A stretch of DNA of 27,241 nt from a virus. Under the pieces are notes generated by a model. That model was not told the origin of the DNA, did not search any database, and was given only the letters and a program-made list of their open reading frames with translations. The DNA lies in IMG/VR virus record IMGVR_UViG_3300050821_000369, positions 1 to 27,241 of that record; one strand, written 5' to 3'. Positions 155-26,661 of this stretch are shown here, piece after piece; positions within the stretch are counted from its first letter, which is position 1, and each line of letters opens with the position of its first letter. Both the position numbers and the translations under genes were made by a program.

Positions 155-182
155 TTGACAGGCCCGGCGAAACCACTATAAT
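155..182 (+). promoter_or_regulatory. Consensus sigma70 promoter (TTGACA-16-TATAAT)
   Basis: A perfect -35 box TTGACA lies at 155-160 and a perfect -10 box TATAAT at 177-182, with a 16-bp spacer. Transcription would start near 188-190 and read the small gene at 232. The -10 box sits inside palindrome site S1, so a protein bound there would block RNA polymerase. It is the best host-type promoter I see in the window. Confidence 0.85.
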
Positions 183-187
183 AGTGA
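173..187 (+). promoter_or_regulatory. Palindrome site S1 over the -10 box
   Basis: CCACTATAATAGTGA: half-sites CACTA and TAGTG with a 3-nt centre (15-bp version of the dispersed motif). It overlaps the TATAAT box at 177-182, the classic position for a repressor operator. Of the 17 copies this one most directly suggests transcriptional control. Confidence 0.8.
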
Positions 188-189
188 TC

Positions 190-214
190 GTCGGCCAGCG
201 ATTTTCGCCCCGAC
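190..214 (+). promoter_or_regulatory. 5'-terminal mRNA hairpin
   Basis: GTCGG (190-194) pairs with CCGAC (210-214), and inside it GCGA (198-201) pairs with TCGC (205-208) around a TTT loop. The stem begins at the predicted transcription start. A hairpin at the very 5' end is known to protect some bacterial and phage messages from decay; that role here is inference. Confidence 0.6.
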
Positions 215-231
215 AAACTGGAGCTACTCTA

Positions 232-546
232 ATGACTGTTGCTACTTTCAACCTGCCCTCCACCAAGTCTAACAGCAAAGATATCGAATGGGAGCAAATG
301 GAGCTTACTTCATTGCCCCCAGTACTTGCGAAGCAAGTTACTACTATTCATGAAATGGAACAGGCTGTTAAAGCCGCAAAGACTAAGTTTGCGGAACAGT
401 TCAACGATTCGTATAGCGAAGCTATTCCGGCTGGAATGGTTCGCCGGTTTAGTTTCAAGTTTGACGGACTATCCTTTGGTAATGCTGTTCCCAATACAAA
501 GAATGGCAAGACCAAGGTTTCCTTTACTGCAAAGAAAGGCAAGTAA
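232..546 (+). CDS. Small leader-region protein, unknown function
   Basis: This 104-residue protein is the first gene in the window. I chose ATG 232 over an upstream in-frame start at 184 because GGAG at 220-223 lies 8 nt before it and the upstream start would precede the predicted transcription start. The protein has a helical middle (about residues 30-60) rich in Lys, Glu and Ala and a basic C-terminus ending in KKGK. I see no membrane segment or known catalytic motif. It is a single-gene unit with a consensus promoter overlapped by a palindrome operator and a strong terminator just after the stop. Strong, probably repressible expression fits an early or immunity-type gene, but the sequence does not prove a role. 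Confidence 0.75.
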   Translation: MTVATFNLPSTKSNSKDIEWEQMELTSLPPVLAKQVTTIHEMEQAVKAAKTKFAEQFNDSYSEAIPAGMVRRFSFKFDGLSFGNAVPNTKNGKTKVSFTAKKGK

Positions 547-557
547 GTTAACTATAG

Positions 558-2719: not shown

Positions 2720-2735
2720 TAACTATATATAGTGA
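2720..2735 (+). promoter_or_regulatory. Palindrome site S3
   Basis: TAACTATATATAGTGA, 35 nt upstream of the PEP-CTERM-like gene and 44 nt after the terL stop. Its TATATA core might also serve as a -10 element, though no good -35 box lies upstream. Confidence 0.8.
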
Positions 2736-2770
2736 CGCGCACACGGAAAGGCGACATAGGAGTGAGACAA

Positions 2771-3490
2771 ATGCGACGACTTGTAGGTACTTTATTGGGA
2801 GCGACACTGTTAAGCGCCCCCGCAAATGCTACGTTACAGATTGCGCTTCAGGTTGGACCTGATGCGTTCTTCTGTGCCGATAACACTTCGTGCGATACCA
2901 ACCCTGCACTTGGTATTGTTCAGGTTGGTAATGTCGTTGTTGACGGTATTGCAGTTGACGGCTCTATTCAGGCATCGGATCACGGTCCTCCGTTTCCGAG
3001 TTTGAACACGTCATCTCTCGATATCATTAACACGCTAGCCACTCCCATTGTGGCTACTGTTGCCGTGAGTGATACAGACTTTCCGAGTATTGCAGCTTTG
3101 TTCACTGCTGCGGGGTCTGGTACTTGGCAAGGGCCGAGTGGCTCAGCCATCACGATGGGCTGGTTCGTCGATCCGGCGAATGCTCAAGGTGCAGACAATG
3201 CCTTTGACACCCCCGGTGTGTTACTAACCACGTTCAGTAATGCGTCAGTTGGGCGTACTAGTGCGTTCAGTACTAATGGTAGCTTTATCCAAACATTAGC
3301 TGCTCCGTTCTCTATGACCCTTCAATCGACGCTCACTCTGTCTCCGGGAGAGGCGTTGATCAATAGAGGTCAGGCGTTGGTAACGAGTGAGGTGCCTGAG
3401 ACTTCTACTTGGGCTATGATAGCTATTGGCTTTGGGTTTATGGCGTGGGGTGCAGCGACACGCAAGCGTATGCGTGATATCGTAGCCTGA
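2771..3490 (+). CDS. Secreted protein with PEP-CTERM-like (PEPxxWA) sorting signal
   Basis: This 239-residue protein is unlike a virion protein. It starts with a signal peptide (MRR, then a hydrophobic stretch, likely cut after ANA at residue 20). The middle is Ser/Thr/Ala/Gly-rich and beta-type with cysteines at 35 and 41. The tail has the tripartite exosortase signal: VPETSTWAM at 208-216, a hydrophobic segment (217-229) and a basic end (RKRMR, 231-235). The usual motif is P-E-P; here it is P-E-T, but the S-T-W-A-M context fits the PEPxxWA subclass. ATG 2771 has GGAG at 2759-2762; a GTG at 2732 lies inside palindrome S3 and would spoil the signal peptide. It is flanked by S3 and by hairpins plus a tRNA, so it looks like a cargo (moron) gene of host origin. 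Confidence 0.8.
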   Translation: MRRLVGTLLGATLLSAPANATLQIALQVGPDAFFCADNTSCDTNPALGIVQVGNVVVDGIAVDGSIQASDHGPPFPSLNTSSLDIINTLATPIVATVAVSDTDFPSIAALFTAAGSGTWQGPSGSAITMGWFVDPANAQGADNAFDTPGVLLTTFSNASVGRTSAFSTNGSFIQTLAAPFSMTLQSTLTLSPGEALINRGQALVTSEVPETSTWAMIAIGFGFMAWGAATRKRMRDIVA

Positions 3491-3631: not shown

Positions 3632-3716
3632 GGGAGCGTATCCAAGCGATGAAGGAGCCAGACTGTAAATCTGGTGGCTATGTCCCACGTAGGTTCAAAT
3701 CCTACCGCTCCCACCA
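3632..3716 (+). tRNA. tRNA-Tyr (GTA anticodon)
   Basis: The acceptor stem GGGAGCG (3632-3638) pairs with CGCTCCC (3706-3712), followed by discriminator A and an encoded CCA (3714-3716). The anticodon arm is CCAGA-CTGTAAA-TCTGG, giving GTA. A long variable arm (about 14 nt) and a T arm GTAGG-TTCAAAT-CCTAC complete a class II bacterial tyrosine tRNA of 85 nt. The D loop (AAGCGATGAA) lacks the usual GG pair, so tertiary folding may be altered. The encoded CCA overlaps the left end of palindrome S4. Confidence 0.9.
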
Positions 3717-3729
3717 CTAACTATAGTGA
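3714..3729 (+). promoter_or_regulatory. Palindrome site S4 at the tRNA 3' end
   Basis: CCACTAACTATAGTGA. Its first three bases are the tRNA's CCA tail, and it ends 6 nt before ATG 3736. A protein bound here would sit between the tRNA and the next operon. Confidence 0.8.
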
Positions 3730-4038: not shown

Positions 4039-4232
4039 CGACAGTTGAGACATTATATTGGGAGGAGACAGAGGAAATAGGGTTTCGTATTTTATGGGCA
4101 GGTGAAGAGAAAATGAATGGTGCATACATAAAATTTTCATATGACTGTCCTGTCGATAGAATGATTATAAAGTTACGTATTATGGCAGATGAACTTGAAG
4201 AACAATTGAGGATGGAAAACACTCATGATTAA
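4035..4232 (+). CDS. Small acidic protein, unknown function
   Basis: A 65-residue acidic protein (many Glu), beginning MTTVETLYWEE and ending in a charged helix DELEEQLRMENTHD. Start ATG 4035 overlaps the upstream stop as ATGA and has GGGAGAG shortly before it. It overlaps the next gene by 8 nt, so translation is probably coupled. No domain is recognised. Base composition is AT-rich like its neighbours. Confidence 0.7.
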   Translation: MTTVETLYWEETEEIGFRILWAGEEKMNGAYIKFSYDCPVDRMIIKLRIMADELEEQLRMENTHD

Positions 4233-4473
4233 AGCAACAGCAGTTCAACCAGATGGACGTACATTATTAATTCTTGGGTTAAGTTTTGGCAATCTTGCTA
4301 AGTTTCGTGATGAGCCGGGAGATACGTTCATTAAAGTTAATGGTGCATTAATGGATTTGCCAATTGATGTATTAATATTCTCTGGTAAAACTGAAGCTCA
4401 TTTAGCTGAACTTATGAAGGATGCTATCGGTCCTAACACCATAGTACATATAGACTCAAAGCTCAAGAGCTAA
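4225..4473 (+). CDS. Small protein, unknown function
   Basis: An 82-residue protein with alternating hydrophobic strands (TLLILGLSFG, DVLIF) and an amphipathic helix (HLAELMKDAIG). Its order of strands and helices suggests a small alpha/beta fold. No family is recognised. It overlaps the previous gene by 8 nt. Its TAA stop is the first three bases of palindrome S5, whose inner ATG starts the next gene. Confidence 0.7.
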   Translation: MIKATAVQPDGRTLLILGLSFGNLAKFRDEPGDTFIKVNGALMDLPIDVLIFSGKTEAHLAELMKDAIGPNTIVHIDSKLKS

Positions 4474-4486
4474 CTATGAATAGTGA
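4471..4486 (+). promoter_or_regulatory. Palindrome site S5 holding a stop and a start codon
   Basis: TAACTATGAATAGTGA. The TAA (4471-4473) ends the previous gene and the ATG (4476-4478) starts the next one, encoding M-N-S-D. A protein or hairpin here would directly affect translation initiation. Confidence 0.8.
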
Positions 4487-5177: not shown

Positions 5178-5735
5178 ATGACAAAGCATGAGTTTCTAAA
5201 TATCATGCGCCGACTTATGGTGGAGGCGCGTCGTGCTGAGTTACTAGGTAAAATCACTGATGCTTGTGGTGCCGCTGGATATGACGATGTGGGTGACTTT
5301 ATTGATAGTCTTTGGGAAGGTAATAAAAAAGAGAATGTAGAAACTACTGGCCCAATAGTAGAAGAATATGATTTCTTACTAGGCCCGATTATGAAAGAGA
5401 TATGGGAGAGTGGATATAGGTTCTGGGATTGTACTAACCCTAAAACACTTACTGGGTTCATTGATCCTTATAATGGTCATTGGACTAAATATTTTTCTGA
5501 TTTTGTGGGTAGACAACCAGATACTTGGGGGTTTATCTATCGTAGATATAGAGAAAATAAAGAGGCAGGAACACTACTAGGTCCGAAAGGAAAACCGAAC
5601 CTTCGTAGTGTGGCAACTGTAGATGAGGCAATGCAAGCGTCAGATGAAATAGACTACGTGGCAAACACTATTACGGGTGCGCTTAACGATGCTGTAAGGA
5701 AGAAAGCCCGTGAAGCAGGTGAAGATTCCGCTTAA
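5178..5735 (+). CDS. Hypothetical protein, 185 residues
   Basis: I chose ATG 5178 rather than 5163 because GGGAG at 5168-5172 is well spaced for it and it follows the preceding stop by one base. The protein has a helical N-terminus (EFLNIMRRLMVEARRAELLG), an aromatic-rich centre (residues about 65-125 with many Trp, Tyr and Phe) and a helical C-terminus. No motif points to a function. It overlaps the following gene by 26 nt. A structural or packaging-accessory role is possible from position only. Confidence 0.75.
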   Translation: MTKHEFLNIMRRLMVEARRAELLGKITDACGAAGYDDVGDFIDSLWEGNKKENVETTGPIVEEYDFLLGPIMKEIWESGYRFWDCTNPKTLTGFIDPYNGHWTKYFSDFVGRQPDTWGFIYRRYRENKEAGTLLGPKGKPNLRSVATVDEAMQASDEIDYVANTITGALNDAVRKKAREAGEDSA

Positions 5736-6267
5736 TGATGAGCAGGTAAAACTCTTTCATGCGCTTGCACAAGAAATTGTGCAGGCGTATCAAACGAAAG
5801 AGAACATGCTCAAGTCTCTAAACTTGACAGAGGAAGGGTATGAGTTAATTACTCATAACCCTACGTTCCAACGTATACTTCGCCAGATCATGGTGGAGTG
5901 GAACGGTGCAGTTAATACTGCTAAACGTGTAAAGATCAAATCTCAGTGGGCAATTGAAGAAGGTTTGCCTTATATATTTGAGTCAATGACAGACTCAAAT
6001 GAACCGTTAAGTGCCCGTGTTGAAGCATTCAAGGCTATAAGTAAGATAGGCCAATTGGACACTCACGATGCAATACATGGTGCTGATAAGAGTTTCAGAC
6101 TTGAAATTAACATCGGTGCCGGGCTTCCAACGGTAACTATAAATAGTGAGAAAATTATTGAACACGACCCTGAAGAGAGTGAATGGGAGGCAGATCGCGA
6201 GGATAATTACACCTCTGGACGCTTTGTTCCGGCCGATCCACCGACTTTCGGGCGCGAAGAAAAATAA
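5710..6267 (+). CDS. Helical protein, possible small terminase or packaging accessory
   Basis: A 185-residue protein read from GTG 5710, with AAGGA about 9 nt upstream; GTG 5719 is an alternative. The N-terminal two thirds are all-helical (EQVKLFHALAQEIVQAYQTK, later ARVEAFKAISKIGQLD) and the tail is acidic and disordered. Small terminase subunits often have this size and style, and the gene lies directly before the portal, but no helix-turn-helix is clear and TerL is far upstream. I therefore hold this call loosely. Palindrome S6 lies inside the gene and encodes V-T-I-N-S-E. Confidence 0.45.
   Translation: MKQVKIPLNDEQVKLFHALAQEIVQAYQTKENMLKSLNLTEEGYELITHNPTFQRILRQIMVEWNGAVNTAKRVKIKSQWAIEEGLPYIFESMTDSNEPLSARVEAFKAISKIGQLDTHDAIHGADKSFRLEINIGAGLPTVTINSEKIIEHDPEESEWEADREDNYTSGRFVPADPPTFGREEK
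6134..6149 (+). promoter_or_regulatory. Palindrome site S6 (inside CDS)
   Basis: TAACTATAAATAGTGA, identical to S17. It lies within the 5710-6267 coding region, read as codons ACT ATA AAT AGT. Confidence 0.8.
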
Positions 6268-6366: not shown

Positions 6367-8718
6367 ATGCCACCTCTGGTGCCATTCAGAGTAGTTGGTA
6401 CAAACGAGACGGCTGCCCAGTTTGATCAGGCTGCCGCTCAACGTGCTCAAGCAATATATCCTCCTAATAGAACCCCAAATCTAACTGGGCTATCCGGTTA
6501 TATATGGGATCAGTGGCTTATTATGCGTCGCCACCGGGATACAGCAAGTTCCGGTTGGAGTTATAGATTGTTGCGTGCGTTACGTGCTTTCAATGGAGAG
6601 TATGAACCAGAACAGATATTAGCTATTAAGAAGTTCGGAGGATCAGAAGTTTATGCTAGATTGTTAGCGATGAAGTGTAGGGGCACTACTTCACTATTGC
6701 GCGATGTATACTTAGGCCCAGAACGTCCTTGGGGTCTTGAGCCGGATGATGATCCGCCTATTCCAGATGAAATAATTCAATCTATTCAAACTCTTGTACA
6801 TTCTGAATTGCAGGAAGCCACACAGGCTCACTACCAAGCCCTTATGCAGACTGCGGCTCACTTCCATGCCGTCTCGCAAGCTCACGCCTACGGACAACAA
6901 ACAGGACAATCTCAACAGCAGGTGGCTAGCTCACTACCACCTGAGCCACCTTCTCCTCCACCTATACCTGACGCAAATGCTATCCGCGACAGAATACTCG
7001 GACTTGAGACGGCTGCTAGAGATGCTGCTAAGAAAAAATGCGCCGAACAAACTAAAATCGCCGAAGATAAAATACAAGAGATATTAAGTGAAGGTGGGTT
7101 CTTTACAGCACTAGCAGAGTTTTTAGTTGATTTACCTTTGTTTCCTTATGGAGTTATTAAAGGTCCGGTCGTCCGTATTAAAACAAGTGTAGAGTGGATA
7201 CAAGCTCCTAGTCCATCTCCTCCCGCTTTAAGTAGAGCGCCACCCAATCCGAATGATCCTAGTCAGTTCCAAGGTCAAACAGTTTCAGGTTCTCCCGGTC
7301 AAACGGCACCAAGGGTTGGTGGACCTAAACAAGCAGTTGTTACAAACAAACCAATACTTTGTTGGGAGCGTGTTTCCCCTTTCGATATCTATTGGACCCC
7401 CGGTGTCTCAGACATAGCGAACGCCAATGTTATTGAGCGTATGCGTCTTACCCGTGCAGAAATCAACGATCTACTTGATATGCCCGGCTTCAATACAGAC
7501 GAAGTGCGTGCCGTTCTTGACGAGTACGGGTCTGGTGGTCTCGTGGATACTTGGGATCAGACAGATCAACCTCGAGCTATTCTTGAATCTCGTGAAGACC
7601 CTCGGTTTAACCAATCGGGATTGATTAGCTGTTTACAGTTCCAAGGTAATGTGCAAGGTAGTCATTTACTTGATATAGGTTTTCCACCGAACCAGATCAC
7701 AGACAAATCTAGAGATTATCATGTTCAGGCTTGGTTGATTGGTTCTCATGTCATTAAAGCGCAACTAACACCATCACCACGTAAGCGACACCAATACTAT
7801 GTCACCTCACTCGAAAAGGTTCCTGGTACTCCTGTTGGTAACGGTTTGCCTGACATTCTTACTGATATTACTACCGTTGCTAATGCTACTCTCCGGTCAC
7901 TTGTCAATAACCTTTCCATCGCTAGCGGACCACAAGTAATTGTTAATGATGATAGACTATCAGACGGTGAGGATGGAGAAGACCTATACCCGTGGAAGCG
8001 ATGGCATGTCAAATCTGATCCGTTTGGCAATAATACCGAACCTGCGATATCATTCTTTAATCCCGCTTCTAACGCTCAGGAATTGCTTGCGGTTTACCAA
8101 GCGTTCTCCCAATTAGCAGATGAGATAAGCGCCATACCTAAATTTATGACCGGCACACCTAGTGCTGGTGTTGGGCGTACTGCATCTGGTTTGTCGATGT
8201 TGATGCAGAACTCTGCAAAGATACTCCAGACTGTTTGTTCTAACATAGATCGCGATGTCATATCTGAAGTTCTAGATGGGCTTTTTGATATGATTATGAT
8301 GTTTGATAAGTCGGGTATACTCACAGGTGACGAAAAAGCTAGAGTTCTTGGAGTTGCTACCGCCATACAGCGAGAGACTGAGCGTTCCCGTCAGCTTGAG
8401 TTTCTACAGCTTACAGCTAATCCGATTGATATGCAGATCATTGGACCGAAAGGAAGGGCGCAGGTACTTAGGAGTGTGGCGGATAAAATTGGTTTACCGG
8501 GGGAGAACATTGTTCCTACAGAGGAACAGCTTGAAGCCCAACAGAAAGCCGCAGCTGCTATGGCGGCAAGCCAAGGTATTCCGGGCCACGCTCAAAGCCC
8601 GCCAGAACAACCATCACCGGGGGCACAAGCCCAAGGTAGTCAAGCTGGTCCGCCAACTAACAACCAACAAGGCCCAATGACTAACAACGTTGGAGCAGTC
8701 GCAGGAGGGGTGGGGTAA
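6367..8718 (+). CDS. Portal (head-tail connector) protein
   Basis: This 783-residue protein has the size and pattern of podovirus portals, which form the dodecameric ring at the capsid vertex where TerL docks. The N-terminal helical region (residues 40-120, WDQWLIMRRHRDTASSGW) precedes a Gln/Ala-rich and then proline-rich linker near 180-203. The wing/stem core carries the typical segment RTASGLSMLMQNSAKILQ near residue 603. The C-terminus (about 700-783) is Gln/Pro/Ala/Gly-rich and probably disordered. There is no strong Shine-Dalgarno at ATG 6367. Upstream is an AT-rich gap with a possible promoter; downstream lies palindrome S7. Confidence 0.9.
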   Translation: MPPLVPFRVVGTNETAAQFDQAAAQRAQAIYPPNRTPNLTGLSGYIWDQWLIMRRHRDTASSGWSYRLLRALRAFNGEYEPEQILAIKKFGGSEVYARLLAMKCRGTTSLLRDVYLGPERPWGLEPDDDPPIPDEIIQSIQTLVHSELQEATQAHYQALMQTAAHFHAVSQAHAYGQQTGQSQQQVASSLPPEPPSPPPIPDANAIRDRILGLETAARDAAKKKCAEQTKIAEDKIQEILSEGGFFTALAEFLVDLPLFPYGVIKGPVVRIKTSVEWIQAPSPSPPALSRAPPNPNDPSQFQGQTVSGSPGQTAPRVGGPKQAVVTNKPILCWERVSPFDIYWTPGVSDIANANVIERMRLTRAEINDLLDMPGFNTDEVRAVLDEYGSGGLVDTWDQTDQPRAILESREDPRFNQSGLISCLQFQGNVQGSHLLDIGFPPNQITDKSRDYHVQAWLIGSHVIKAQLTPSPRKRHQYYVTSLEKVPGTPVGNGLPDILTDITTVANATLRSLVNNLSIASGPQVIVNDDRLSDGEDGEDLYPWKRWHVKSDPFGNNTEPAISFFNPASNAQELLAVYQAFSQLADEISAIPKFMTGTPSAGVGRTASGLSMLMQNSAKILQTVCSNIDRDVISEVLDGLFDMIMMFDKSGILTGDEKARVLGVATAIQRETERSRQLEFLQLTANPIDMQIIGPKGRAQVLRSVADKIGLPGENIVPTEEQLEAQQKAAAAMAASQGIPGHAQSPPEQPSPGAQAQGSQAGPPTNNQQGPMTNNVGAVAGGVG

Positions 8719-8719: not shown

Positions 8720-8735
8720 TCACTAACGTTAGTGA
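8720..8735 (+). promoter_or_regulatory. Palindrome site S7 (perfect 16-bp)
   Basis: TCACTAACGTTAGTGA is a perfect palindrome, identical to S9. It lies just after the portal stop, 29 nt before the next start. Confidence 0.85.
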
Positions 8736-9330: not shown

Positions 9331-9858
9331 ATGGCCCTCGCAGCTCGTCCTAGAATTGACTTTGGTAGTCGGTTGGCTACTATCCGTGCGATATGCGAGG
9401 ATCTTGGCTTGCCTGTTAATCAAGTGCCTGATCAGAGTGCAGCAAATAGCCCGCGCGTATATTTGAAGTATATCAACTATTGTCGGGCTGCACTCTCATT
9501 GCCGTTGTTAAGTAGTTTGGACTATGGTTCATTTGTAACAGCGGTTAATGCTATAGCGGCAGCAGCAGGTGCAGCAAGACCGGAAATTGTTAATCCGCCG
9601 TTTGCTAGTAGTAATGCTACTCCGCCAGTGTTGGGTAGTATACTGAGCGTTACAAACGGTATATGGTTGAATGCTTCTGGTGCTACATTTACTTATCAGT
9701 GGCAGCGTGACAATGCGAATATTGCTGGTCAAACTACAGCAACTCATACCATTGTTGCTGCTGATCAAGGTGGACATGAGTTGAGTTGTCTTGTTGTTGC
9801 AACCACTGCGGCGGGTGCGAGTACTCCGTCACAGAGTAATTACATAGTGGTGCCATGA
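9331..9858 (+). CDS. Protein with helical N-module and Ig-like domain
   Basis: A 175-residue protein. Residues 1-85 are helical (IRAICEDLGLPVNQVP, then YINYCRAALSLP, SSLDYGSFVTAVNAI). Residues about 95-172 look like a bacterial Ig-like domain, with the pattern TYQWQRDNANIAGQTTATHT and ELSCLVVATTAAG. Ig-like domains on phage particles usually give weak surface adhesion. The N-terminal part resembles the proteins at 9855 and 10213, so the three look like paralogues with different C-termini. Position between portal and scaffold suggests a head or neck decoration; this is inference. Confidence 0.75.
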   Translation: MALAARPRIDFGSRLATIRAICEDLGLPVNQVPDQSAANSPRVYLKYINYCRAALSLPLLSSLDYGSFVTAVNAIAAAAGAARPEIVNPPFASSNATPPVLGSILSVTNGIWLNASGATFTYQWQRDNANIAGQTTATHTIVAADQGGHELSCLVVATTAAGASTPSQSNYIVVP

Positions 9859-10220
9859 GTATTTGGGAACGCAATTTCCCACCACCACTTGAGATCACTA
9901 TCCATAGTGATTGCGGTATCTCTGCGCGCACAGAGATAGTGGCGGGTATTTGTAATAAAATTAATGAGCTTATTGAGTTTGCGTTTGGACTTGAAGCTCC
10001 ACCTGTTAAAGTGCCAGCTCAAGGTAATTGTGATGAACGTATGCCGATGACATTCCTTCGGCCATGCATTCAAGCTATAAATCTTATTATATTTCAAAAG
10101 GAGTTCGATGTTGAACCTATACCGCAAATAGGTTCTAGTATGGATTATCATGCATTTGTTCCTGTATGTAAAAGGATTACTGAAACAATTAATAGAATTA
10201 TAGGAGTGTTGAATGGCTGA
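9855..10220 (+). CDS. Paralogue of the helical N-module, no adhesion domain
   Basis: A 121-residue helical protein overlapping the previous gene by 4 nt (ATGA). The end SSMDYHAFVPVCKRITETIN parallels SSLDYGSFVTAVNAI of the upstream gene, and both share an earlier IC..L...VP segment. It has five Cys in total. It stops where its neighbours continue into Ig-like or LamG-like domains. Palindrome S8 lies 40 nt inside the gene, reading T-I-H-S-D. Confidence 0.7.
   Translation: MSIWERNFPPPLEITIHSDCGISARTEIVAGICNKINELIEFAFGLEAPPVKVPAQGNCDERMPMTFLRPCIQAINLIIFQKEFDVEPIPQIGSSMDYHAFVPVCKRITETINRIIGVLNG
9895..9910 (+). promoter_or_regulatory. Palindrome site S8 (inside CDS)
   Basis: TCACTATCCATAGTGA; the symmetry extends one base each side (ATCACTAT-CC-ATAGTGAT, 9894-9911). 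Located near the 5' end of the 9855 gene. Confidence 0.85.
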
Positions 10221-11346: not shown

Positions 11347-11363
11347 AAGCAAAGGAGAATGAG

Positions 11364-13011: not shown

Positions 13012-13027
13012 TGTTAGTCATTAACAC
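13011..13027 (+). repeat. Small inverted repeat between scaffold and capsid genes
   Basis: GTGTTA (13011-13016) and TAACAC (13022-13027) flank a 5-nt loop directly after the scaffold stop. It may form a short hairpin upstream of the capsid ribosome binding site. It resembles the dispersed palindrome only loosely. Confidence 0.4.
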
Positions 13028-14175: not shown

Positions 14176-14191
14176 TCACTAAGGATAGTGA
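14176..14191 (+). promoter_or_regulatory. Palindrome site S10, directly before a GTG start
   Basis: TCACTAAGGATAGTGA. The AAGGA in its centre is the only plausible ribosome binding site for GTG 14195, so occupancy of the site, or hairpin formation, could shut off translation of the adaptor gene. Confidence 0.85.
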
Positions 14192-17175: not shown

Positions 17176-18395
17176 CATCTAATTATCTTCTTCCTGCTGG
17201 TACAGTAAACAATCGTACTGCATATTTTTATGCAGACAGCACAAAACAGTTTGGCCCTATAGTTAAAAAAGTTTCAGACCAAATTTTAGTTATTTTAGAT
17301 TTTACTACTATATTGGCTGGACATGTTATTGAGACATATAATTTTACTGCTGATGCCGAAACTAATCCACCGTTGTTCTTGACCGATCCAATATTAAATG
17401 CAACTGGTACTGTTCTTTCGTTTTTAATTTCGGGAGGTATTGATGGACAACAATATAACATTGTAATAGCAACTGAGATTGTCGGTTCAACAATTCCGCG
17501 GGATGATATATTAACAATTAATATGCCATCGAAATCTGCATGTGATGCATCTATACCTCCAGTTGTTAGCTTGCTACCCGGAAGTGCAGTCGTTAGTACT
17601 AATATTAGATATTTTTGGGGTCCAGACCCGCCGACTGGTCAACATGTATTAGATCAATGGTTTGATACAAATAACAATTTATTGTATGAATGGGCAACAA
17701 ATGGCATCAATTATTTTTGGGAGGAGATTGGTTTTAGTAACTCTACAACTAGTTATGTTATAGATGCGCCACTTGATGGCACTCTTTACAGTCGTAGGAA
17801 TGCTAATTGGATACCTGATCCTATTCAAGTTGATGCTACCTCTGATGGTAAGATATATGTCCGTAATAATGGTGGTTGGATACCTGACCCTCTTCAAGTT
17901 GACGCTCCCAATGATGGTGAAGTTTGGGGGCGGATGAACAACCAATGGGCTGTGCTTACTGAATCAGGAATAATACCGCCTTCAGGTGTTCCAGAAGCAC
18001 CAATTGATAATAATATATATGGGCGTAAGAATGCTACTTGGGTAGTTATTCCTGTTCCGATACCTTTTATTTATCCGGGGAAACCGCCCGCAAGTCAAGT
18101 CATTAACGTACCAATGCCAATAGGAATTAATGTCCCCGCTAATCTTGCTGGTGCATTAGTATATGATAGTACGCAAGCAACGGCAAACGCAGCATTTACT
18201 TTGAACAAAATAAGTGCTGGAGTGACTACTGCAATAGGCACTCTGACCGTTACACCAGCAAGCCATACATCAGTTACATTGGCAGGTAGCGGAGGGATAT
18301 TAGTGGTAGGCGATATACTTCAAATGGTTGCGCCAGCCACACAGGATGCAACGCTGGCTGACGTCAGCCTCACTATTTTAGTGACGAGGACGTAA
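17172..18395 (+). CDS. Fibre protein with four DAPxDGxxYxRxNxxW repeats (paralogue B)
   Basis: A 407-residue protein. The N-terminus (residues 15-118) and the unit around 157-187 (VLDQWFD...[17 protein letters not shown]) match the gene at 15351. Then come four tandem repeats near 198-217, 221-240, 244-261 and 275-292, such as [16 protein letters not shown]. The last ~105 residues are a beta domain often seen at fibre ends ([16 protein letters not shown]..., [20 protein letters not shown]). Likely a tail fibre or its adaptor. It overlaps the collar gene by 4 nt. Palindrome S12 is near its 3' end. Confidence 0.75.
18370..18384 (+). promoter_or_regulatory. Palindrome site S12 (15-bp version)
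   Basis: TCACTATTTTAGTGA: both half-sites are perfect but the spacer is 3 nt, as in S1. It lies at the 3' end of the 17172 gene, 13 nt before the next start codon. Confidence 0.75.
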
Positions 18396-19927: not shown

Positions 19928-20949
19928 CCATTTATTTTGCAGGTACTGAGGATGTTGATTTTACTTTAGCAGGAACGGCTATCGGTTCAACTACTGGACC
20001 GTTTGATGCTGCATTGCGTGGTAATATACTTATGAATACTAGTAATGCAGCTTGGCCGCCTACTAGCTATGCTACCAATCCAGTTTCATTAGGCAATTTA
20101 TCGTCGTTCTGGTTTCATTGTGGGTTTGTTAGTTCGGCTAGTGGAGTTGGACAGATACTTAATACTATTCCATTTGCATTTGCTGATGCTGCTGGAGTTG
20201 CGCGTCTTTTAATCCGAAACACAGGCAACGTTGGACAATTTAAAATTTCTACTCGTAATGCGGCAGGAACGATTGTTGATCTTGTTACTGGAACTAATGG
20301 AGCCTTTGGTCAAGCTGTACTTGTCAAGATAGATATTTTTGTTAACTACTCGGCTACTGGGCGCGTGATAATTTATGCTAATGGTGTTAATATTTGCGAT
20401 ACTGGTGCTAGTATAAATGTTACGACTGATGGCGCAACCAGTCTTAGTTTTTTCTATCTTACTCCATGTCAAACTAACGTTTCTAATAATAACTTCTCGG
20501 AAGTTATTGTTGCTGATATTGATACTCGTTCAATGAAGTTGTGGTTATTGAACTCTGCAACTTCTGGCACACTTACTCAGTGGACAGGAACGGCAACAAA
20601 CGTTAATAAAGCAGTTATTGCTGATGGAACATTTGTTACTAGTCCAACTGCTGGACAAATTAATGATTATAAAACTGGCGGTATTACAGTCCCTACTGGC
20701 TCTTGGATTGTTAGGGCAGTAGTGACATCTATGCGTGCTCTTGCTTCGGTGGATGCTGGTCCACAGCATGTACAGTCAGGGTTTAACTTTAATGGTACAC
20801 GCTATTGGTCTTCAAGTTATGCACCTGGGGCTGCATTCGGTAATTTTCCTAATCTAGTGTGGCCCACTAACCCAAATACAGCAGCAGCGTGGACGATAGC
20901 CGATGTGACAGCAGCTACATTTAATTATGGCGTACAGAGTATAGCTTAA
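19924..20949 (+). CDS. Adhesin-like tail protein, paralogue of the preceding gene
   Basis: A 341-residue beta-rich protein. The N-terminal 200 residues look like a jelly roll (FWFHCGFVSSASG, VLVKIDIFVNYSATGRVIIYANG). The C-terminal ~100 residues (INDYKTGGI, MRALASVDAG, NPNTAAAWTIADVTAATFNYGVQ) correspond in order and pattern to the end of the 18398 product, indicating duplication and divergence. It overlaps both neighbours by a few bases. Function inferred as a surface or fibre component. Confidence 0.65.
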   Translation: MTIYFAGTEDVDFTLAGTAIGSTTGPFDAALRGNILMNTSNAAWPPTSYATNPVSLGNLSSFWFHCGFVSSASGVGQILNTIPFAFADAAGVARLLIRNTGNVGQFKISTRNAAGTIVDLVTGTNGAFGQAVLVKIDIFVNYSATGRVIIYANGVNICDTGASINVTTDGATSLSFFYLTPCQTNVSNNNFSEVIVADIDTRSMKLWLLNSATSGTLTQWTGTATNVNKAVIADGTFVTSPTAGQINDYKTGGITVPTGSWIVRAVVTSMRALASVDAGPQHVQSGFNFNGTRYWSSSYAPGAAFGNFPNLVWPTNPNTAAAWTIADVTAATFNYGVQSIA

Positions 20950-21281
20950 TGACTACCGAAGTTTCAAAAGTTAATGTTTATGCTGTTATAGATAATAATG
21001 CCGTAGAGGTTTCAAAGATTAATGTTTATGCTGTTATAGATATAGCTTTGGGTTCTACGATTGCTTATATAACCCAAGCCCAAGTAGAGGTTTGGGGGCA
21101 AGGAGCGCAAGGAGGTAATCCGAATGCTTGTGCAACTCAAATCCAAGTGGAAGTTTGGGGCGCATCGTTTATCGTTGGTAATCTTTCGGTCATCATTACT
21201 CAAGCGCAAACTGAAGTATGGACTACTACTGCTAACGTAATCCCGTCGCACATGCAACCGTATGCGATAGTCTTAGCGTAA
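20949..21281 (+). CDS. Beta-repeat protein (VSKxNVYAVID and TQxQxEVW repeats)
   Basis: A 110-residue protein made almost wholly of short repeats: EVSKVNVYAVID then EVSKINVYAVID, followed by ITQAQVEVWG, ATQIQVEVWG and ITQAQTEVWT. The pattern predicts stacked beta strands. Similar TQ-x-x-V-E-V repeats occur in phage structural proteins. ATG 20949 shares its A with the previous stop. The stop TAA (21279-21281) is part of palindrome S13. Confidence 0.7.
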   Translation: MTTEVSKVNVYAVIDNNAVEVSKINVYAVIDIALGSTIAYITQAQVEVWGQGAQGGNPNACATQIQVEVWGASFIVGNLSVIITQAQTEVWTTTANVIPSHMQPYAIVLA

Positions 21282-21294
21282 CTAACTATAGTGA
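21279..21294 (+). promoter_or_regulatory. Palindrome site S13
   Basis: TAACTAACTATAGTGA. Its first TAA is the stop codon of the 20949 gene, and ATG 21305 follows 10 nt later. Confidence 0.8.
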
Positions 21295-21508: not shown

Positions 21509-24253
21509 ATGTCTGTAATTACTATACAAGATTTCTCTGGTATGATGCCACTTCGGGATGGAATACTCCTTCCCGATAGAAACGCGCAGTATGCGAAAAA
21601 TACATGGCTCTACAAGGGAGGCGTTAGAGGGTTTCGGCAGGCTCTTCAGGTCTACACAACTATCCATAGTGACACGCAGCAAGTGTATCGTATACCGGAA
21701 AGTGTTGCTGAACCCCCTGATTTTTCTGCTTCCAAATGGTTAGAGTTTCCTGATCCATATATGGCTGTAATACGCAACCCCGTTGTTGGGGATCAATGGA
21801 ATAGGTATTATTTTTTCCCATCTGATCAGTATGCTTCAACTGGTGATAATCCAGATTGGCCTACTATAAAGCCACCTCCTCAATACAGAACATATGATCC
21901 GGCAACTAATACACTTGGGCCTATGTTGGTCATTGGTATCCCCACTCCTACTGTTGCTCCTACTGTTGTACCGGCACCAACAACCCTAACAAAAACGGCT
22001 ACTGCTGCCGTTCCTGCTGGCGGCACAACATTAACTCTTAATAATACTACCGATCTTAGCGATGGCATGTCTATCACAGATAAGACTGCCACTACAGTAA
22101 CACATACGACAACTGCTGCTACTAATCCAAATTCGATTACGCCGACATACTCAGCTATTACTTCTACTAGTTTAGTTCCAACTGTAATAACTCAATCAAT
22201 AACTGTTGGAGCGCCTGCTGGTACTCCGTACTTAACTGTACCTAGTAGTGCTGGTATCACACAAGGTATGATACCTATAAATCCATCAAATCCATCTTCG
22301 ATCCCTACTGGTACTTTCGTGAGTATTGTATCGGGAATTAATATTACTTTAAGCCAAAATATGGCTGCTCTTATACCTCCAGGTACTGCAATAAATTTCC
22401 AATCCCCTCCGCCTAATGTTTTAGTATTAAGTAATACTGCTGGTGCTACAGTTGGCATGGCAGTTGCAAATCTTTCAAACCCATCTTCAATTACTGCTGG
22501 TACTACTATAATTGCTGTTTCAGGAAGCGAAATTACTTTAAGTGCAAACGTAGCTAGTACTGTTAATGCTGGAGATGCAATACAATGTGGAGCCACATCC
22601 CCTAATACTTTAGCTATGAATAGTGTTACTGGCATTGTTGCTGGTATGACAATTACGGATGTTACAAATTCGGCAGCACTTATTGTTAATACTACAGTGG
22701 CTAGTGTATCAGGGCTTAAGGTTACGATGAGCCAAGATGTAGCTAGCAGTGGTGTTGGTGCTGGTGATAGCATCCAATTCCAAAATATAGTGTTTCCCAT
22801 AGCTACACAGATTGATACTAAAGGGGTAGTAAACACAACAACGGTTAATATAACCGCGCCTACTGCTGGTGCCGGTGTGTTGGTTGGTGATCAAATTCAG
22901 TTTGATGTTACTGATATTGAGAACAGAGCATATGTTTATACATACGTTAGTGCATATGGTGAAGAGGGTGCAGCTAGTCCGCCGACAAATGAAACAGGAA
23001 ATCCTACTGGTACGTGGACAATAACTATACCTGCTCCCGCTGCTGGTATTACAACCAACCGAAATTTAGCCAAAGTACGCTTATATCGTACTGTCGTTGA
23101 TAGTTCTGGCAATGCATCGTACTATCAAGTGACAGAGTTTGGACCTCCGTTTCCGACCGGAGTAACTAACTATAGTGACTCGGCGTTGCCACAGGATGTC
23201 GTTTTTAATTCTCCACTGTCAAGCGAGCTTTATACAGCACCCCCCATTGATCTTCAGGGGGTAGTGATGATGGCAAATGGTATAGCCGCAGGGTGGAGTA
23301 ACGAACGGGAGATATGGTTCAGTGCTGCTTATCTGCCTCACGCTTGGCCTGCTTCTTATGCTCTCACAGTGGATTATCCAATTGTGGGACTAACTGCAAA
23401 TGGTGCTTCCTTAAACATCATGTGTAAAGGAACACCGTTCATTGCTACTGGTGTTACTCCTGATACGATGACTATTGGTAGAATATCATCCAATGAGCCA
23501 TGTATTAGTAGGGGCAGTGTAGTGTCATCTGGTGAAGGCGCTTACTATGCTTCACCTAACGGCATTATATTGCTGAACTCTAGCGGCACTGTAAGTATAA
23601 CTGAATTTGTTTATGAAAAAGAGTTTCACAATACGTTACAGCCTTGGAATTGGGCTGCTGGACATTTCGGATTAAACTATGTGGCTTTTATAAGAGGTAC
23701 AGGATTAATTGATGTTGATCCTGATGGAGCAGTACTACATGGTTTTGTCCTAGATAAAGAGGACAAGAATACTTCATTTACTTATCTTCATTTTTCTACT
23801 ACAGTTGAGAATATGTATTTCGATGAGATATCAGGTCAATTGTTTGAGATATTAAGTGATGGCAGAGTAATGCAGTGGAACCCACCAGTAGCTAATCCGG
23901 GTACTACTACATTATGGGATTGGACGTGGGAGTCCAAACCGTTTCGTATGGCGTTTCCAGCATCGTTCAAAGCCATTAAGATTATATTTGATGTACCGTC
24001 AGAAGTAACTATTATACCTATGACAAGAAATACTTCTCAAGATCAAGTCTTTGATCCTGCTACGCAATGGTTAATCATTAGAGTGTATGCAGATGATAGG
24101 TTTGTAATGGTAAAGGAAATACTAAGGAACGAAGAGGTTCTATTGATACCAGATGGGTTTAAGGCTACTCTGTGGGAACTTGAACTTCAAGGTCAAGTAA
24201 ATGTTGTGCATCTTAAGATGGCAACGAGTGTGAAGGAGTTGAGGAAAGCTTAA
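21509..24253 (+). CDS. Tail nozzle-like protein with inserted repeat domain
   Basis: A 914-residue protein. The start (SVITIQDFSGMMPLRDGILLPDRNAQYAKNTWLYKG) and the later segments ENRAYVYTYVSAYGEEG, KVRLYRTVV, GVVMMANGIAAGWSNEREIWFS and GEGAYYASPNGIILLNS indicate the beta-propeller-like podophage nozzle/tail-tube protein (same position and role as T7 gp12). Residues about 160-465 look inserted: three ~57-residue repeats (about 240-297, 304-360, 367-424) with the pattern GM, then NPSSIxxGT, VSG, ITLSxNVA, AGDAIQ. Palindromes S14 and S15 are inside. It shares one base with the next start. Confidence 0.8.
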   Translation: MSVITIQDFSGMMPLRDGILLPDRNAQYAKNTWLYKGGVRGFRQALQVYTTIHSDTQQVYRIPESVAEPPDFSASKWLEFPDPYMAVIRNPVVGDQWNRYYFFPSDQYASTGDNPDWPTIKPPPQYRTYDPATNTLGPMLVIGIPTPTVAPTVVPAPTTLTKTATAAVPAGGTTLTLNNTTDLSDGMSITDKTATTVTHTTTAATNPNSITPTYSAITSTSLVPTVITQSITVGAPAGTPYLTVPSSAGITQGMIPINPSNPSSIPTGTFVSIVSGINITLSQNMAALIPPGTAINFQSPPPNVLVLSNTAGATVGMAVANLSNPSSITAGTTIIAVSGSEITLSANVASTVNAGDAIQCGATSPNTLAMNSVTGIVAGMTITDVTNSAALIVNTTVASVSGLKVTMSQDVASSGVGAGDSIQFQNIVFPIATQIDTKGVVNTTTVNITAPTAGAGVLVGDQIQFDVTDIENRAYVYTYVSAYGEEGAASPPTNETGNPTGTWTITIPAPAAGITTNRNLAKVRLYRTVVDSSGNASYYQVTEFGPPFPTGVTNYSDSALPQDVVFNSPLSSELYTAPPIDLQGVVMMANGIAAGWSNEREIWFSAAYLPHAWPASYALTVDYPIVGLTANGASLNIMCKGTPFIATGVTPDTMTIGRISSNEPCISRGSVVSSGEGAYYASPNGIILLNSSGTVSITEFVYEKEFHNTLQPWNWAAGHFGLNYVAFIRGTGLIDVDPDGAVLHGFVLDKEDKNTSFTYLHFSTTVENMYFDEISGQLFEILSDGRVMQWNPPVANPGTTTLWDWTWESKPFRMAFPASFKAIKIIFDVPSEVTIIPMTRNTSQDQVFDPATQWLIIRVYADDRFVMVKEILRNEEVLLIPDGFKATLWELELQGQVNVVHLKMATSVKELRKA
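21657..21672 (+). promoter_or_regulatory. Palindrome site S14 (inside CDS)
   Basis: CAACTATCCATAGTGA. It sits 149 nt into the nozzle gene and encodes T-I-H-S-D, the same peptide as S8, with an identical TATCCATAGTGA core. Confidence 0.75.
22226..22780 (+). repeat. Three diverged repeats inside the nozzle gene
   Basis: Three units of about 170-190 nt encode the ~57-residue repeats described for the nozzle gene. They are clear at protein level, diverged at DNA level, and share stretches such as AATCCATCAAATCCATC-like Asn-Pro-Ser coding sequence. Confidence 0.6.
23163..23178 (+). promoter_or_regulatory. Palindrome site S15 (inside CDS)
   Basis: TAACTAACTATAGTGA, identical to S13 although S13 is intergenic. 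It reads V-T-N-Y-S-D within the nozzle gene. Confidence 0.8.
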
Positions 24254-24768
24254 TGCCAGTTGCTACTAAATATCCCTCGATACCAATACACTCCGGCGAT
24301 CTTAAAAGCATGGGTGATGCAGTCAATGCTATGCGTCAAACGGTGAGTTTGTTAATTGTAAATCAACAACAGCCATCACAACCGACGCTAACTAAAGCAT
24401 CGCAAGTATTTGCTACTACAGACCATGTGGCACAAGCGATATCTTCAGCAAGTGTAGCAGGTCCAGCAGGTCCGCCCGGTAAAGATGGTCCGCCCGGTAA
24501 AGATGGTCCGCCCGGTCCAGCAGGTGCTCCCGGTACAGGTTTCCCTGATGCACCTATTGACGGTTTCTATTATGCGCGTTTTAATAGAACATGGAATAAA
24601 GTGCTAGGATTGAGTGGTGGTGTAATGACAGGTTCATTGACTTTAGTTAATGCTGTGTTTTCTCCTTTACCAGTTGATGCTGCTAATGATAGTGCTGCTG
24701 CTACTGCTGGCGTTCCAGTTGGTGGTGTTTATAAGAATGGTTCAGTATTGATGGTGAGGGTAACATGA
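24253..24768 (+). CDS. Collagen-like tail fibre protein
   Basis: A 171-residue protein. A helical N-terminus (DLKSMGDAVNAMRQTVSLL) probably trimerises. Residues about 70-95 are a collagen-like Gly-x-y run (GPAGPPGKDGPPGKDG...), followed by one DAPIDGFYYARFNRTW repeat of the kind found four times in the 17172 product. The end (GVPVGGVYKNGSVLMVRVT) is a common phage fibre C-terminus. Collagen-like stretches give rigid trimeric rods in phage fibres. It overlaps the next gene by 4 nt. Confidence 0.8.
   Translation: MPVATKYPSIPIHSGDLKSMGDAVNAMRQTVSLLIVNQQQPSQPTLTKASQVFATTDHVAQAISSASVAGPAGPPGKDGPPGKDGPPGPAGAPGTGFPDAPIDGFYYARFNRTWNKVLGLSGGVMTGSLTLVNAVFSPLPVDAANDSAAATAGVPVGGVYKNGSVLMVRVT
24469..24516 (+). 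repeat. 18-bp tandem repeat in the collagen-like segment
   Basis: GGTCCGCCCGGTAAAGAT occurs at 24469-24486 and 24487-24504, and its first 12 bases again at 24505-24516. In-frame units encode GPPGKD. Near-identical tandem copies can change number by slippage and so vary rod length. Confidence 0.85.
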
Positions 24769-25286
24769 TCCGTATAAACGATGTTCATGCTATCAATGCT
24801 GTAGCAAGAGCGGCACGGGTACAATTCGTTCCGCATATACACCATTGTATTGCTGAGTATAACTCTCGTGATCAACTGGTAGGCGGTGTATTGTTTACAG
24901 ATTGGAATTATGGTTCTGTGATTACTCATATTGCTCTAGTTCCAGTTAAAGGTCTATTGTGTAGGCAATTATTATGGTTGACATGTCAATATGGATTTAA
25001 TCAATTACAGGCAAAGAAAATGATTGCTTTAGTACCAGAATGGAATATAGCTTCTCGTAATTTAGTTTTGAAGCTCGGATATAAAATAGAATATAAGATG
25101 GATGATGTATTTAATAATCCTCCTCCATTAGATAATGGTATGTACATTACAAGTATGGTGCGTCAAGATTGTAAATGGTTAAGAATGAAACCACCAGTTA
25201 TAGAATTTGCTCCGCAAGAACGAATGAACCATTTACCGACGATAGAAGAACTAGCTGCTATGCCAGTGGCTCCGGTTCTTCACTAA
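24765..25286 (+). CDS. GNAT-family acetyltransferase-like protein
   Basis: A 173-residue protein. The core VGGVLFTDWNYGSVITHIALVP is the GNAT beta-hairpin. It is followed by a helix in the acetyl-CoA region (GLLCRQLLWLTCQYGFNQL) and a late motif (ALVPEWNIASRNLVLKLGYKIEYK, about residues 88-110), as in N-acetyltransferases that end with N-x-x-S-x-x-L-x-x-x-L-G-[FY]. The Q/R-x-x-G-x-[GA] signature is not clean, so activity is uncertain. Such genes are common beside tail genes of podophages; target unknown. Its stop TAA is inside palindrome S16. Confidence 0.75.
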   Translation: MIRINDVHAINAVARAARVQFVPHIHHCIAEYNSRDQLVGGVLFTDWNYGSVITHIALVPVKGLLCRQLLWLTCQYGFNQLQAKKMIALVPEWNIASRNLVLKLGYKIEYKMDDVFNNPPPLDNGMYITSMVRQDCKWLRMKPPVIEFAPQERMNHLPTIEELAAMPVAPVLH

Positions 25287-25295
25287 CTATAGTGA
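25280..25295 (+). promoter_or_regulatory. Palindrome site S16
   Basis: TCACTAACTATAGTGA with both half-sites perfect. It contains the TAA stop (25284-25286) of the acetyltransferase gene and ends 9 nt before ATG 25305. Confidence 0.85.
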
Positions 25296-25304
25296 GAGAC
25301 GACG

Positions 25305-26648
25305 ATGGGTGGCGGTAAGGGCGGACAAGCAGACCAGTCTGGTATGATGCAGGCACTGGTCAGCGCGCAAGCTGCACAACAAGCTTATCAGTTAGGATCG
25401 CAAGAACTTGACTGGTCGAAGCAGCAGTGGGCGCAAGAATACCCATACATGCAGCAGATCGCCCAAGGACAAATTCAAACCCAAAACCAAACCGCGGACT
25501 TCAGTCGGAACCAACAACAGTTCTATGAGCAACAATATCAACCGATGGAGGCCCAATATAATAAACAAGCTGAGGAGTGGGCGTCTCCGCAGAACATAGC
25601 ACTACAGTCTAGTGAAGCATCAGCTAATGTTGCTGAAGGCATTAATGCTCAGAAGGCTAGCGCACAGCAACAATTAGAAGGTTACGGTGTTAACCCCGGC
25701 GCAACTAGATTTGCTTCCCTTGGTGCCGCTATGGGAGTTCAAGGCGGTGCGGCTGAAGCTGGTGCTGGTACGCAAGCGGCAATGGCAACTAAGATGCAAG
25801 GTATGCAGTTAGTTGGTGGTGCTGTTAATACTGGTCGTGGGTTCCCAAATGCAGTTGCTTCATTGTCTGGCGCATCAACAGGAGCAGGACAAGCTGGATC
25901 ACAAGGTATAACGAGTGGTATGCAAACTGGTTCAAATATGATGACTGCACCATCACAATGGTGGAATGCTGGTGCAAATAATATGAGTGTGTATACTGGT
26001 GCGGTTAATGGATATAACCAAGCACAAGTAGGATTTGCACAAGCCAATGCAAGTGAGATGGCAGGGTTTGGGTCTGCTGCTGGTAGCTTAATGGGGATGG
26101 CTATGTTCCATCCTTGGGCAGAGAAAGGTGGACCGATTGAGAGATACGAAGATGGTGGTACAGTAATTGCACTTCCTCGTAGACCTAATCCATATAGTTC
26201 AGGAGGGCACTATAGTCCGCCAATGGGCTTTGCGGATGGTGGAGCTATACCTCGTTATTTCCAAGCAGGACCGGCAGCACAACCAGTACAACCGGGGCAA
26301 CCACAACCACAACAACCTCCACCACCTATACCTCCACAGAATGGTACACCGGGAGGGATTATAACGCCGCAGATGTCTCCATCTAAAGGTCAAGTGCCTG
26401 ACGATGTGGATGCTAAATTAACTGTTGGTGAGTTCGTTATGCCACTAGATGTTGTGCGGTGGAAAGGTAAAGAGTATTGGTACAAACAAATTGACAGCGC
26501 AAGGAAGCAAGAGACAGAAGCTAACATGCGTGGGGATATTGGTGGTGAACCTGTAATGGGTATACCATCGCGTAATCCTCAGTTCGTATCTAGACCAAAT
26601 GCTATGCCGGGGCAACCGGGTGTTATGCCAGCGAGGGCGGTCGCCTAA
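25305..26648 (+). CDS. Internal virion-type protein, Gln/Gly/Ala-rich
   Basis: A 447-residue protein. Residues 1-120 are helical and Gln-rich; 120-260 are Gly/Ala/Met-rich with predicted helices. At about 270-320 it has GG turns (AEKGGPIERYEDGGTVI, GFADGGAIPRY), then a Pro/Gln-rich linker. A C-terminal conserved unit at about 364-390 reads VPDDVDAKLTVGEFVMPLDVVRWKGKE, known from podophage internal or ejected proteins. Together with the transglycosylase-bearing next gene it probably forms the ejectosome. The stop TAA is the first three bases of palindrome S17. Confidence 0.75.
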   Translation: MGGGKGGQADQSGMMQALVSAQAAQQAYQLGSQELDWSKQQWAQEYPYMQQIAQGQIQTQNQTADFSRNQQQFYEQQYQPMEAQYNKQAEEWASPQNIALQSSEASANVAEGINAQKASAQQQLEGYGVNPGATRFASLGAAMGVQGGAAEAGAGTQAAMATKMQGMQLVGGAVNTGRGFPNAVASLSGASTGAGQAGSQGITSGMQTGSNMMTAPSQWWNAGANNMSVYTGAVNGYNQAQVGFAQANASEMAGFGSAAGSLMGMAMFHPWAEKGGPIERYEDGGTVIALPRRPNPYSSGGHYSPPMGFADGGAIPRYFQAGPAAQPVQPGQPQPQQPPPPIPPQNGTPGGIITPQMSPSKGQVPDDVDAKLTVGEFVMPLDVVRWKGKEYWYKQIDSARKQETEANMRGDIGGEPVMGIPSRNPQFVSRPNAMPGQPGVMPARAVA

Positions 26649-26661
26649 CTATAAATAGTGA
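26646..26661 (+). promoter_or_regulatory. Palindrome site S17
   Basis: TAACTATAAATAGTGA, identical to S6. Its TAA ends the 25305 gene and ATG 26671 follows 9 nt after it. Confidence 0.8.

Follow-up and report, generated by a model that had tools for sequence, protein, structure and literature searches.

Introduction

Genome-wide repressor arrays are best known, in the accessible part of the literature searched, from the cluster A actinobacteriophages, whose repressors are monomeric and whose sites are directional. According to the accessible text of two reports, phage L5 and other cluster A phages possess more than 20, and up to about 30, repressor sites, some of them in promoters and others in short intergenic spaces (PMC9283540, PMC6550527). 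These L5-type sites (stoperators) are asymmetric, 13 bp long, bound by a monomer and dependent on orientation; their consensus is similar but differs between phages, and the distance between motifs follows the distance between genomes. Here we describe an array of dispersed palindromes in a stretch of viral DNA of 27,241 nucleotides (IMG/VR record IMGVR_UViG_3300050821_000369, positions 1 to 27,241), called the window below, and in related phages. In our estimate the probability is about one half that these palindromes are, as predicted, sites for a phage-encoded dimeric regulator, which would use them as promoter operators and as genome-wide road-blocks to transcription.

Other phages with dispersed repeats come close as well, and the comparisons that follow hold for the accessible text of the reports cited. 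T1-like phages contain 22-bp repeats, 16 in Stevie and 20 in T1, which the authors compare with stoperators (PMC4319613, PMC11447400). Stevie and TLS resemble the phages studied here in being proteobacterial phages with dispersed repeats, although those of Stevie are asymmetric, mainly intergenic and of one direction. In the cyanophages A-1 and N-1, motifs are scattered over the genome in 43 and 21 copies, as a rule in the spaces that separate open reading frames (ORFs), and were regarded as possible stoperators (PMC4916379); unlike the palindromes here, they are asymmetric. The repressor of Streptomyces phage R4 acts at many genome sites, and at least 8 R4-type sites occur in the phages of that report; such a many-site repressor is alike, whereas the Streptomyces hosts differ and a palindrome is not among the features described (PMC10276819). 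A further report concerns a group of Autographiviridae, not phages of the type of the isolated Rhizobium phage RHph_TM27A (PMC8631192). Neither a palindromic array of this kind nor RHph_TM27A by name was found in the literature searched, which included little subscription content and, for Rhizobium-phage repeats, comprised the matches listed.

The window matches, with nine of nine probes and at a constant offset, a viral record of 54,389 bases (IMGVR_UViG_3300021478_000036, here G001). The first-pass annotation of the window had described the sites as dispersed across the genome, which is right as to their dispersal but not as to the extent of the genome, of which the window is half. The closest isolated phages found are the Rhizobium phages RHph_TM27A, TM27B, TM29 and TM3_14A (capsid 59%, portal 50% identity), and only a remote resemblance links them to the marine phages of the HMO-2011 type (capsid about 28-33%). 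The parallel with L5 stoperators that had been drawn from the window holds in part. As in L5-type phages, at least 20 dispersed sites share one motif (42-47 in G001), some of them lie over promoter-like sequences, the consensus is specific to the lineage, and motif distance follows genome relatedness in both groups, as far as the accessible L5 text goes. Unlike L5 sites, those described here are symmetric palindromes of 15-16 bp without orientation, with half-sites spelled in many different ways and a binder known at candidate level only; the hosts known so far belong to Rhizobium and Bradyrhizobium. L5 sites lie mostly in intergenic spaces; the palindromes are enriched outside coding sequences, yet half of those in RHph_TM27A are intragenic. 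Where L5 has an operator at its early promoter, sites here overlap promoter-like sequences, recognized by eye, at a divergent region and upstream of a conserved gene family (family 10) in 5 of 24 genomes; a general enrichment of consensus promoters at the sites was not seen. L5-type phages are also temperate, with a gp71-type repressor that has helix-turn-helix and Stoperator domains and halts elongation on binding; on lifestyle, the group described here offers a probable integrated prophage in Bradyrhizobium and 15 of 15 other records in which integrases were searched for and not matched. The function of the array may be L5-like, but by the asymmetry and orientation of L5 sites it is not a member of that type.

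Results

Occurrence and conservation of the palindromes

The palindrome T[AC]ACTA-N4-TAGTGA had been listed at 17 starts in the window, and it is present at all of them: 12 positions match strictly on either strand (11 on the + strand, the site at 1193 on the - strand only), three carry one mismatch (3714, 15541 and 21657) and two have a 3-bp spacer. The uniform 16-bp form with a spacer of four that had been ascribed to the sites thus applies to 15, those at 173 and 18370 being 15 bp long. A backward control pattern of the strict motif had 0 matches in the window. With up to two mismatches and both strands counted, the window has 41 matches; dinucleotide shuffles, 100 in number, averaged 5.1 and never exceeded 12, which bears out the view that the motif exceeds chance. 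In G001 a matrix scored 42 sites with spacer 4 (0.77 per kb), and a count by mismatches (at most two) gave 44 with spacer 4 plus three with spacer 3.

The matrix scan of the full genome and its relatives that had been suggested found 18-66 sites per record in 12 records, both records with 18 sites being 28-kb fragments. The motif of G001 itself occurs in 5 of 37 records, all with a capsid identity of at least 85%; of the remaining 32, 31 are without it and one, G027, has it once. The sites stay in place among close relatives, as anticipated by the first-pass annotation: 8 of 8 alignable sites in G002 and 6 of 8 in G004, out of 49 G001 sites in total, against a null of 1-2%. Identity is higher within the sites than in their surroundings (0.95 vs 0.81 for G002, 0.88 vs 0.77 for G004). 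In G007, which has a different half-site, the one alignable G001 site is not kept.

Between lineages the half-site is respelled. It reads, for example, CAACTA in G007, TAACTG in G018, TTACTC in G011, G016, G023 and G026, TTACCC in G009, and TTACCT in G027 and RHph_TM27A. Over 44 motifs the half-site can be written n[TC]nAC[TC]n, and the distance separating the inner C of one arm from the inner G of the other is 7 or 8 bp throughout (44/44), a uniformity that is favoured by the setting of the register on the AC core. These motifs were obtained from 48 distinct winged-helix/motif loci, selected among 80 polA loci, the A4 loci and the whole genomes; four of the 48 were dropped for having too few sites. 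The spelling of the half-sites has changed between lineages and their spacing has stayed constant within one base. Dinucleotide shuffles served as the palindrome control at polA loci, because a reversed sequence is uninformative where a palindrome stays a palindrome. It had been supposed that the motif would not be equally frequent in unrelated phages; indeed, the palindrome family was not found in HMO-2011 and phiM6 (first 50 kb each), in Pseudomonas phage KPP25 or in the seven bacterial-contig loci L132-L137 and L139. Rollin was excluded from this judgement on account of its N runs. Other dispersed palindromes are present in L251 and L255 (TTGTTC), L267 (TTGATC), L273 (TTAACC) and L276 (CTAACA), where the winged-helix gene described below was not found; these loci may have a second type of binder.

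Recognition of DNA and symmetry of the arms

Over 12 genomes, 439 deviations from the consensus affect a single arm, 342 leaving it unpaired and 97 giving a G-U pair. In 22 cases both arms deviate (16 compensatory), compared with about 19.5 expected from independence. Because the arms mutate independently, DNA rather than RNA is recognized, in agreement with the dimeric DNA-binding protein that had been preferred to an RNA stem, and the RNA stem was rejected on the ground of this independence.

A further remark had been that left arms often change to TAACTA. The excess of changes is real, and its explanation lies mainly in TAA read in the direction of transcription. At three of the six TAACTA sites of the window (4471, 21279 and 26646) the TAA is the stop codon of the preceding ORF. 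Upstream arms deviate more often than downstream arms (276 vs 207, p 0.002, 12 genomes), and the difference vanishes when TAA/TTA changes are left out (183 vs 169, p 0.49); for G001 alone the counts are 24 to 6 and 13 to 5, respectively. TAACTA arms largely reuse TAA, partly as a stop codon. Directional sites of the L5 kind were rejected as a general feature, since the bias between arms is gone without TAA/TTA changes.

Placement along genes and promoter-like sequences

With the GenBank genes of RHph_TM27A, 21 of 42 sites are not wholly within coding sequences, compared with 10.8% expected (p 2.8e-10), and 13 of the 42 end 3-7 bp 5' of a start codon. In 10 of 11 genomes the sites follow each other at more regular intervals than random placement would give, the exception being G009 (p 0.25). 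Orthologous gene starts share an upstream site beyond expectation despite differing half-sites (odds ratio 2.0, p 1.4e-4; 70 pairs with both, the pairs not being independent).

Overlap with promoter-like sequences was judged by eye. In the window, site CCACTATAATAGTGA (173-187, spacer 3) covers the -10 box of a sigma70-like promoter on the + strand (155-182; TTGACA at 155-160, 16 bp, TATAAT at 177-182), where the rightward arm begins. The leftward promoter-like sequence of the divergent region contains the site at G001 reverse-complement 28769. Family 10 likewise has a site over a promoter-like sequence ahead of its start codon, at a distance of 45-55 bp in G001, G026 and G027 and further out in G018 (133 bp) and G010 (315 bp). 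At most 60 bp upstream of the family 10 start, a site is found in 11 of 24 genomes.

Candidate binding proteins

The best structural candidate for the binder is a putative winged-helix protein of about 100 amino acids adjoining polA. In G001 it has 111 amino acids and is encoded outside the window (reverse-complement 15475-15810). Its profile matches OmpR/PhoB effector domains in PDB (best E 6e-4), its match to Pfam PF00486 is below the cut-off (E 0.0012), and the structure model has a pLDDT (predicted local distance difference test) of 85. Among full genomes it is encoded by 19 of the 24 with the motif and by 1 of the 4 without it. This motif-bearing status was judged by eye from repeat counts; G063 is borderline with 15 sites, its 20-kb locus L272 having been scored motif-negative, and G061, one of the four motif-negative genomes, is a fragment in which TerL and portal are missing; the contrast given below for family 10 therefore rests on three. 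Among polA loci of at least 15 kb the winged helix was found in 37 of the 47 with the motif and 2 of the 11 without it (Fisher p 3e-4, relatedness uncontrolled), and among whole records in 16 of 45, many misses being short fragments. G021 and G029 are without polA and G031 has it; weak matches appeared in 4 of 27 further records (G051, G055, G056 and G058). We prefer the winged helix because no other candidate is both widespread and endowed with a putative DNA-binding fold. In G031, where the winged-helix gene was not found, the polA ORF (9529-13239, +) encodes about 1237 amino acids, double the usual size.

Family 10 comprises widely conserved proteins of 240-409 amino acids, predicted to be helical, on the early-arm side of the divergent region. 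It had no Pfam match at E 0.01, no fold match and no PHROG match except one weak hit (E 0.027). It is present in 24 of the 47 polA loci with the motif and in 3 of the 11 without it (L230, L262 and L272), the gene lying often beyond the fetched flank in these 58 loci.

Several other proteins were considered. A small Cro-type helix-turn-helix family, of which G001 has a member, is seen in 9 of the 24 genomes with the motif and in 1 of the 4 without it and was rejected as general binder for this low presence; HTH_3 matches were obtained in 7 of 15 records, 2 of them over the cut-off. A second winged-helix family adjoining polA (group 31) was dismissed with 8 of 28 genomes. Group 23 (22 of 24 motif-bearing, 0 of 4 others) was set aside too, DNA-binding features not being seen in it. 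Phage N15 with its dispersed centromeres and RK2 with its KorB operators have inverted-repeat sites spread over the replicon and a ParB-type binder. The spread of inverted repeats is alike here but the binder differs: the ParB-like protein that had been put forward found no support, as ParB_N (PF02195), the sole family searched, was matched in 0 of 15 records and in 10 of 14 control genomes, and a ParB array was rejected. RNA_pol went unmatched in all 15 records, though also in the control genomes; a palindrome would not fit a directional phage RNA polymerase promoter.

Lifestyle

The group probably has temperate members. Two contigs of Bradyrhizobium sp. 139 carry matches to phage proteins, C111 from about 29 kb almost to its end and C166 (170 kb) from close to its start up to 23.0 kb. 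In C166 a serine integrase follows at 23.4-25.2 kb, and the adjoining 15 kb examined are without phage matches. If the ends of C111 and C166 join, this phage would be an integrated prophage. In Bradyrhizobium SA-3, a contig of phage size has at its end the fragment of an ORF that resembles an integrase (PHROG E 1.4e-6, no Pfam match). The DUF927 gene adjoins a serine integrase (L197:3435-5162) in one Bradyrhizobium prophage and an integrase-like ORF (L160:19475-19999) in a second. In RHph_TM27A the stretch 42248-45331 (L126/L127) is annotated as 'putative integrase', but its place among the neighbouring genes is that of the DUF927 protein in relatives.

Discussion

The likeliest explanation is a phage-encoded dimeric regulator that would bind the palindromes along the whole genome. 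The few sites located at promoters would then act as ordinary operators, and the remaining ones, about 0.6 to 1 per kb on both arms and often at gene starts, would be road-blocks for RNA polymerase. In the manner of stoperators, one protein would quiet the entire phage genome, and its half-site specificity would diverge between lineages like immunity groups; half-sites that are respelled at a spacing constant within one base are what would be expected in that case. We infer that the binder is a phage protein and that its binding would silence transcription. More tentatively, and with some doubt, a clade of tailed phages of 54-66 kb related to the Rhizobium phage may share about 20-66 palindromes per genome as a self-recognition code of largely non-integrating phages, in place of prophage immunity in the classical sense, in which one diverging dimeric protein would silence or mark the whole genome.

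A number of results weigh against the regulator. The other 21 of the 42 RHph_TM27A sites lie wholly within genes, and in 8 of 24 genomes the 400 bp ahead of the family 10 start are free of sites, although two of these are cut by the contig end. A consensus-promoter scan of 12 genomes showed no general enrichment at the sites, with 8 overlaps against about 7 (the sum of the shifted means) and no genome above the maximum of its 100 shifts; its site list held one spacer per genome, and window site 173 is hence absent from it. The integrase families PF00589 and PF07508 were matched in 0 of 15 near-complete records, RHph_TM27A included (control matches 14/14 and 3/14), so that prophage silencing cannot explain the sites in every one of them. 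Foldseek returned no PDB match for the winged-helix model at E <=0.001 (best E 0.055), and VIA-align gave a Z of about 7-8 to OmpR-type domains, tied with ArsR/MarR, and a higher one (9.1) to an archaeal winged helix. The winged-helix gene was not found in the motif-bearing G031, G049, G062, G063 and G052. Motif distance follows phylogeny, and partial Mantel tests of motif against winged helix yielded 0.02 given polA (p 0.34, 44 loci) and -0.21 (p 0.97, 17 full genomes). In the covariation test none of 15 proteins was significant after correction for 15 tests (uncorrected p 0.008 for DUF927, 0.023 for TerL, 0.028 for VWA and 0.04 for group 19), and covariation failed as a means of identifying the binder for the winged helix and for all 15 proteins. 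Family 10 follows the motif more closely than does the winged helix, being encoded by 24 of the 24 full genomes with the motif and by 0 of the 4 without it.

The sites could instead have an architectural role in compaction, in the segregation of an extrachromosomal prophage or in packaging, with a phage protein bound genome-wide. This is unlikely, although it would agree with the even spacing in 10 of 11 genomes, the intragenic half of the RHph_TM27A sites, the 0 of 15 records with integrase matches, and a family 10 that is helical, without known fold and tracks the motif (24/24 vs 0/4). Also counted in its favour were the phage-sized L247, L251 and L255, which we take to be isolate genomes from the look of their record numbers. 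It is at odds with the enrichment of sites at gene starts and their partial overlap with promoter-like sequences, with the 0 of 15 records for ParB_N, with the probably integrated Bradyrhizobium prophage and with the family 10 genes in 3 of 11 motif-negative polA loci. A regulator that times the early and late operons of the lytic cycle, as repressor or activator and without a role in lysogeny, would suit the isolated RHph_TM27A and the 14 other near-complete records without integrase match, as well as the sites over early-arm promoter-like sequences; with sites that far outnumber promoters and often lie mid-gene, we hold it to be slightly less likely again.

That a host protein binds the sites is improbable, even though the binder among the phage genes is at candidate level only. 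In an 8.7-Mb Bradyrhizobium assembly 11 of 19 occurrences of TTAC-N8-GTAA fall on its 60.6-kb phage contig, and in a second assembly 18 of 26 fall on phage stretches; since the sites are rare in the host and concentrated on phage DNA, a host regulon was rejected as unlikely. Related phages moreover differ in their half-sites, which likewise speaks against a host protein. RNA hairpins, as terminators, RNase sites or elements of translation control at start codons, would account for the 13 of 42 RHph_TM27A sites just 5' of start codons, but the 342 unpaired single changes against 16 compensatory ones render them highly improbable. The same low probability is given to methylation or restriction recognition sites: the RHph_TM27A annotation includes a putative methyltransferase, but the arms are degenerate, the spacer varies by one base within a genome, and the sites are enriched rather than avoided.

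Dozens of related phages carry a palindromic array that has been respelled several times with its geometry kept. How a regulator and its 40-60 targets change specificity together becomes testable in this series, and the cultured RHph_TM27A group on Rhizobium, along with Bradyrhizobium strains that carry relatives, provides an entry in the laboratory.

Sites along the window and neighbouring genes

The rightward arm of G001 consists of structural genes, and its leftward arm includes polA, an SNF2 helicase, a PD-(D/E)XK nuclease, a DUF927 protein and a VWA-like protein. In the window, the virion and packaging genes recognized encode TerL (1209-2675), an SU10-type portal (6367-8718) and the major capsid protein (13049-14122), besides other proteins of the virion. 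The sites are assigned no strand. Past the promoter-like sequence at the left end, the first strict site (1193-1208) lies immediately 5' of the TerL ORF start at 1209 and the next at 2720-2735. A one-mismatch site (3714-3729) overlaps the 3' end of a tRNA-Tyr gene (3632-3716). At the strict site 4471-4486 the TAA belongs to the ORF 4225-4473; the strict site 6134-6149 lies within the ORF 5710-6267. Perfect sites, all found by the strict scan, follow directly past the portal ORF (8720-8735), at 9895-9910, within the ORF 11944-13011 (12086-12101) and 3 bp before the ORF start at 14195 (14176-14191).

Further to the right, a one-mismatch site (15541-15556) is located within the ORF 15348-16208, and site TCACTATTTTAGTGA (18370-18384, spacer 3) precedes the ORF start at 18398 by 13 bp. 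The strict site 21279-21294 contributes its TAA to the ORF 20949-21281. Two sites lie within the ORF 21509-24253, one with a single mismatch (21657-21672) and one strict (23163-23178). A perfect site of the strict scan (25280-25295) stands 9 bp before the ORF start at 25305, and the last strict site (26646-26661), whose TAA ends the ORF 25305-26648, stands 9 bp before the ORF start at 26671.

The tRNA-Tyr gene runs with its 3' end into the palindrome at 3714, the two together spanning 3632-3729. The ORF 2732-3490 had no match in family searches; its C-terminal end resembles what we take to be a PEP-CTERM sorting signal, and related ORFs are present in several relatives (group 24). In the tail region, the ORF 24253-24768 contains a short collagen-like GPP/GKD stretch. 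Immediately left of the window, the divergent control region (G001 reverse-complement 28600-29158) contains repeated units like TTGTTACTTGACT, and this repeat region is possibly an origin.

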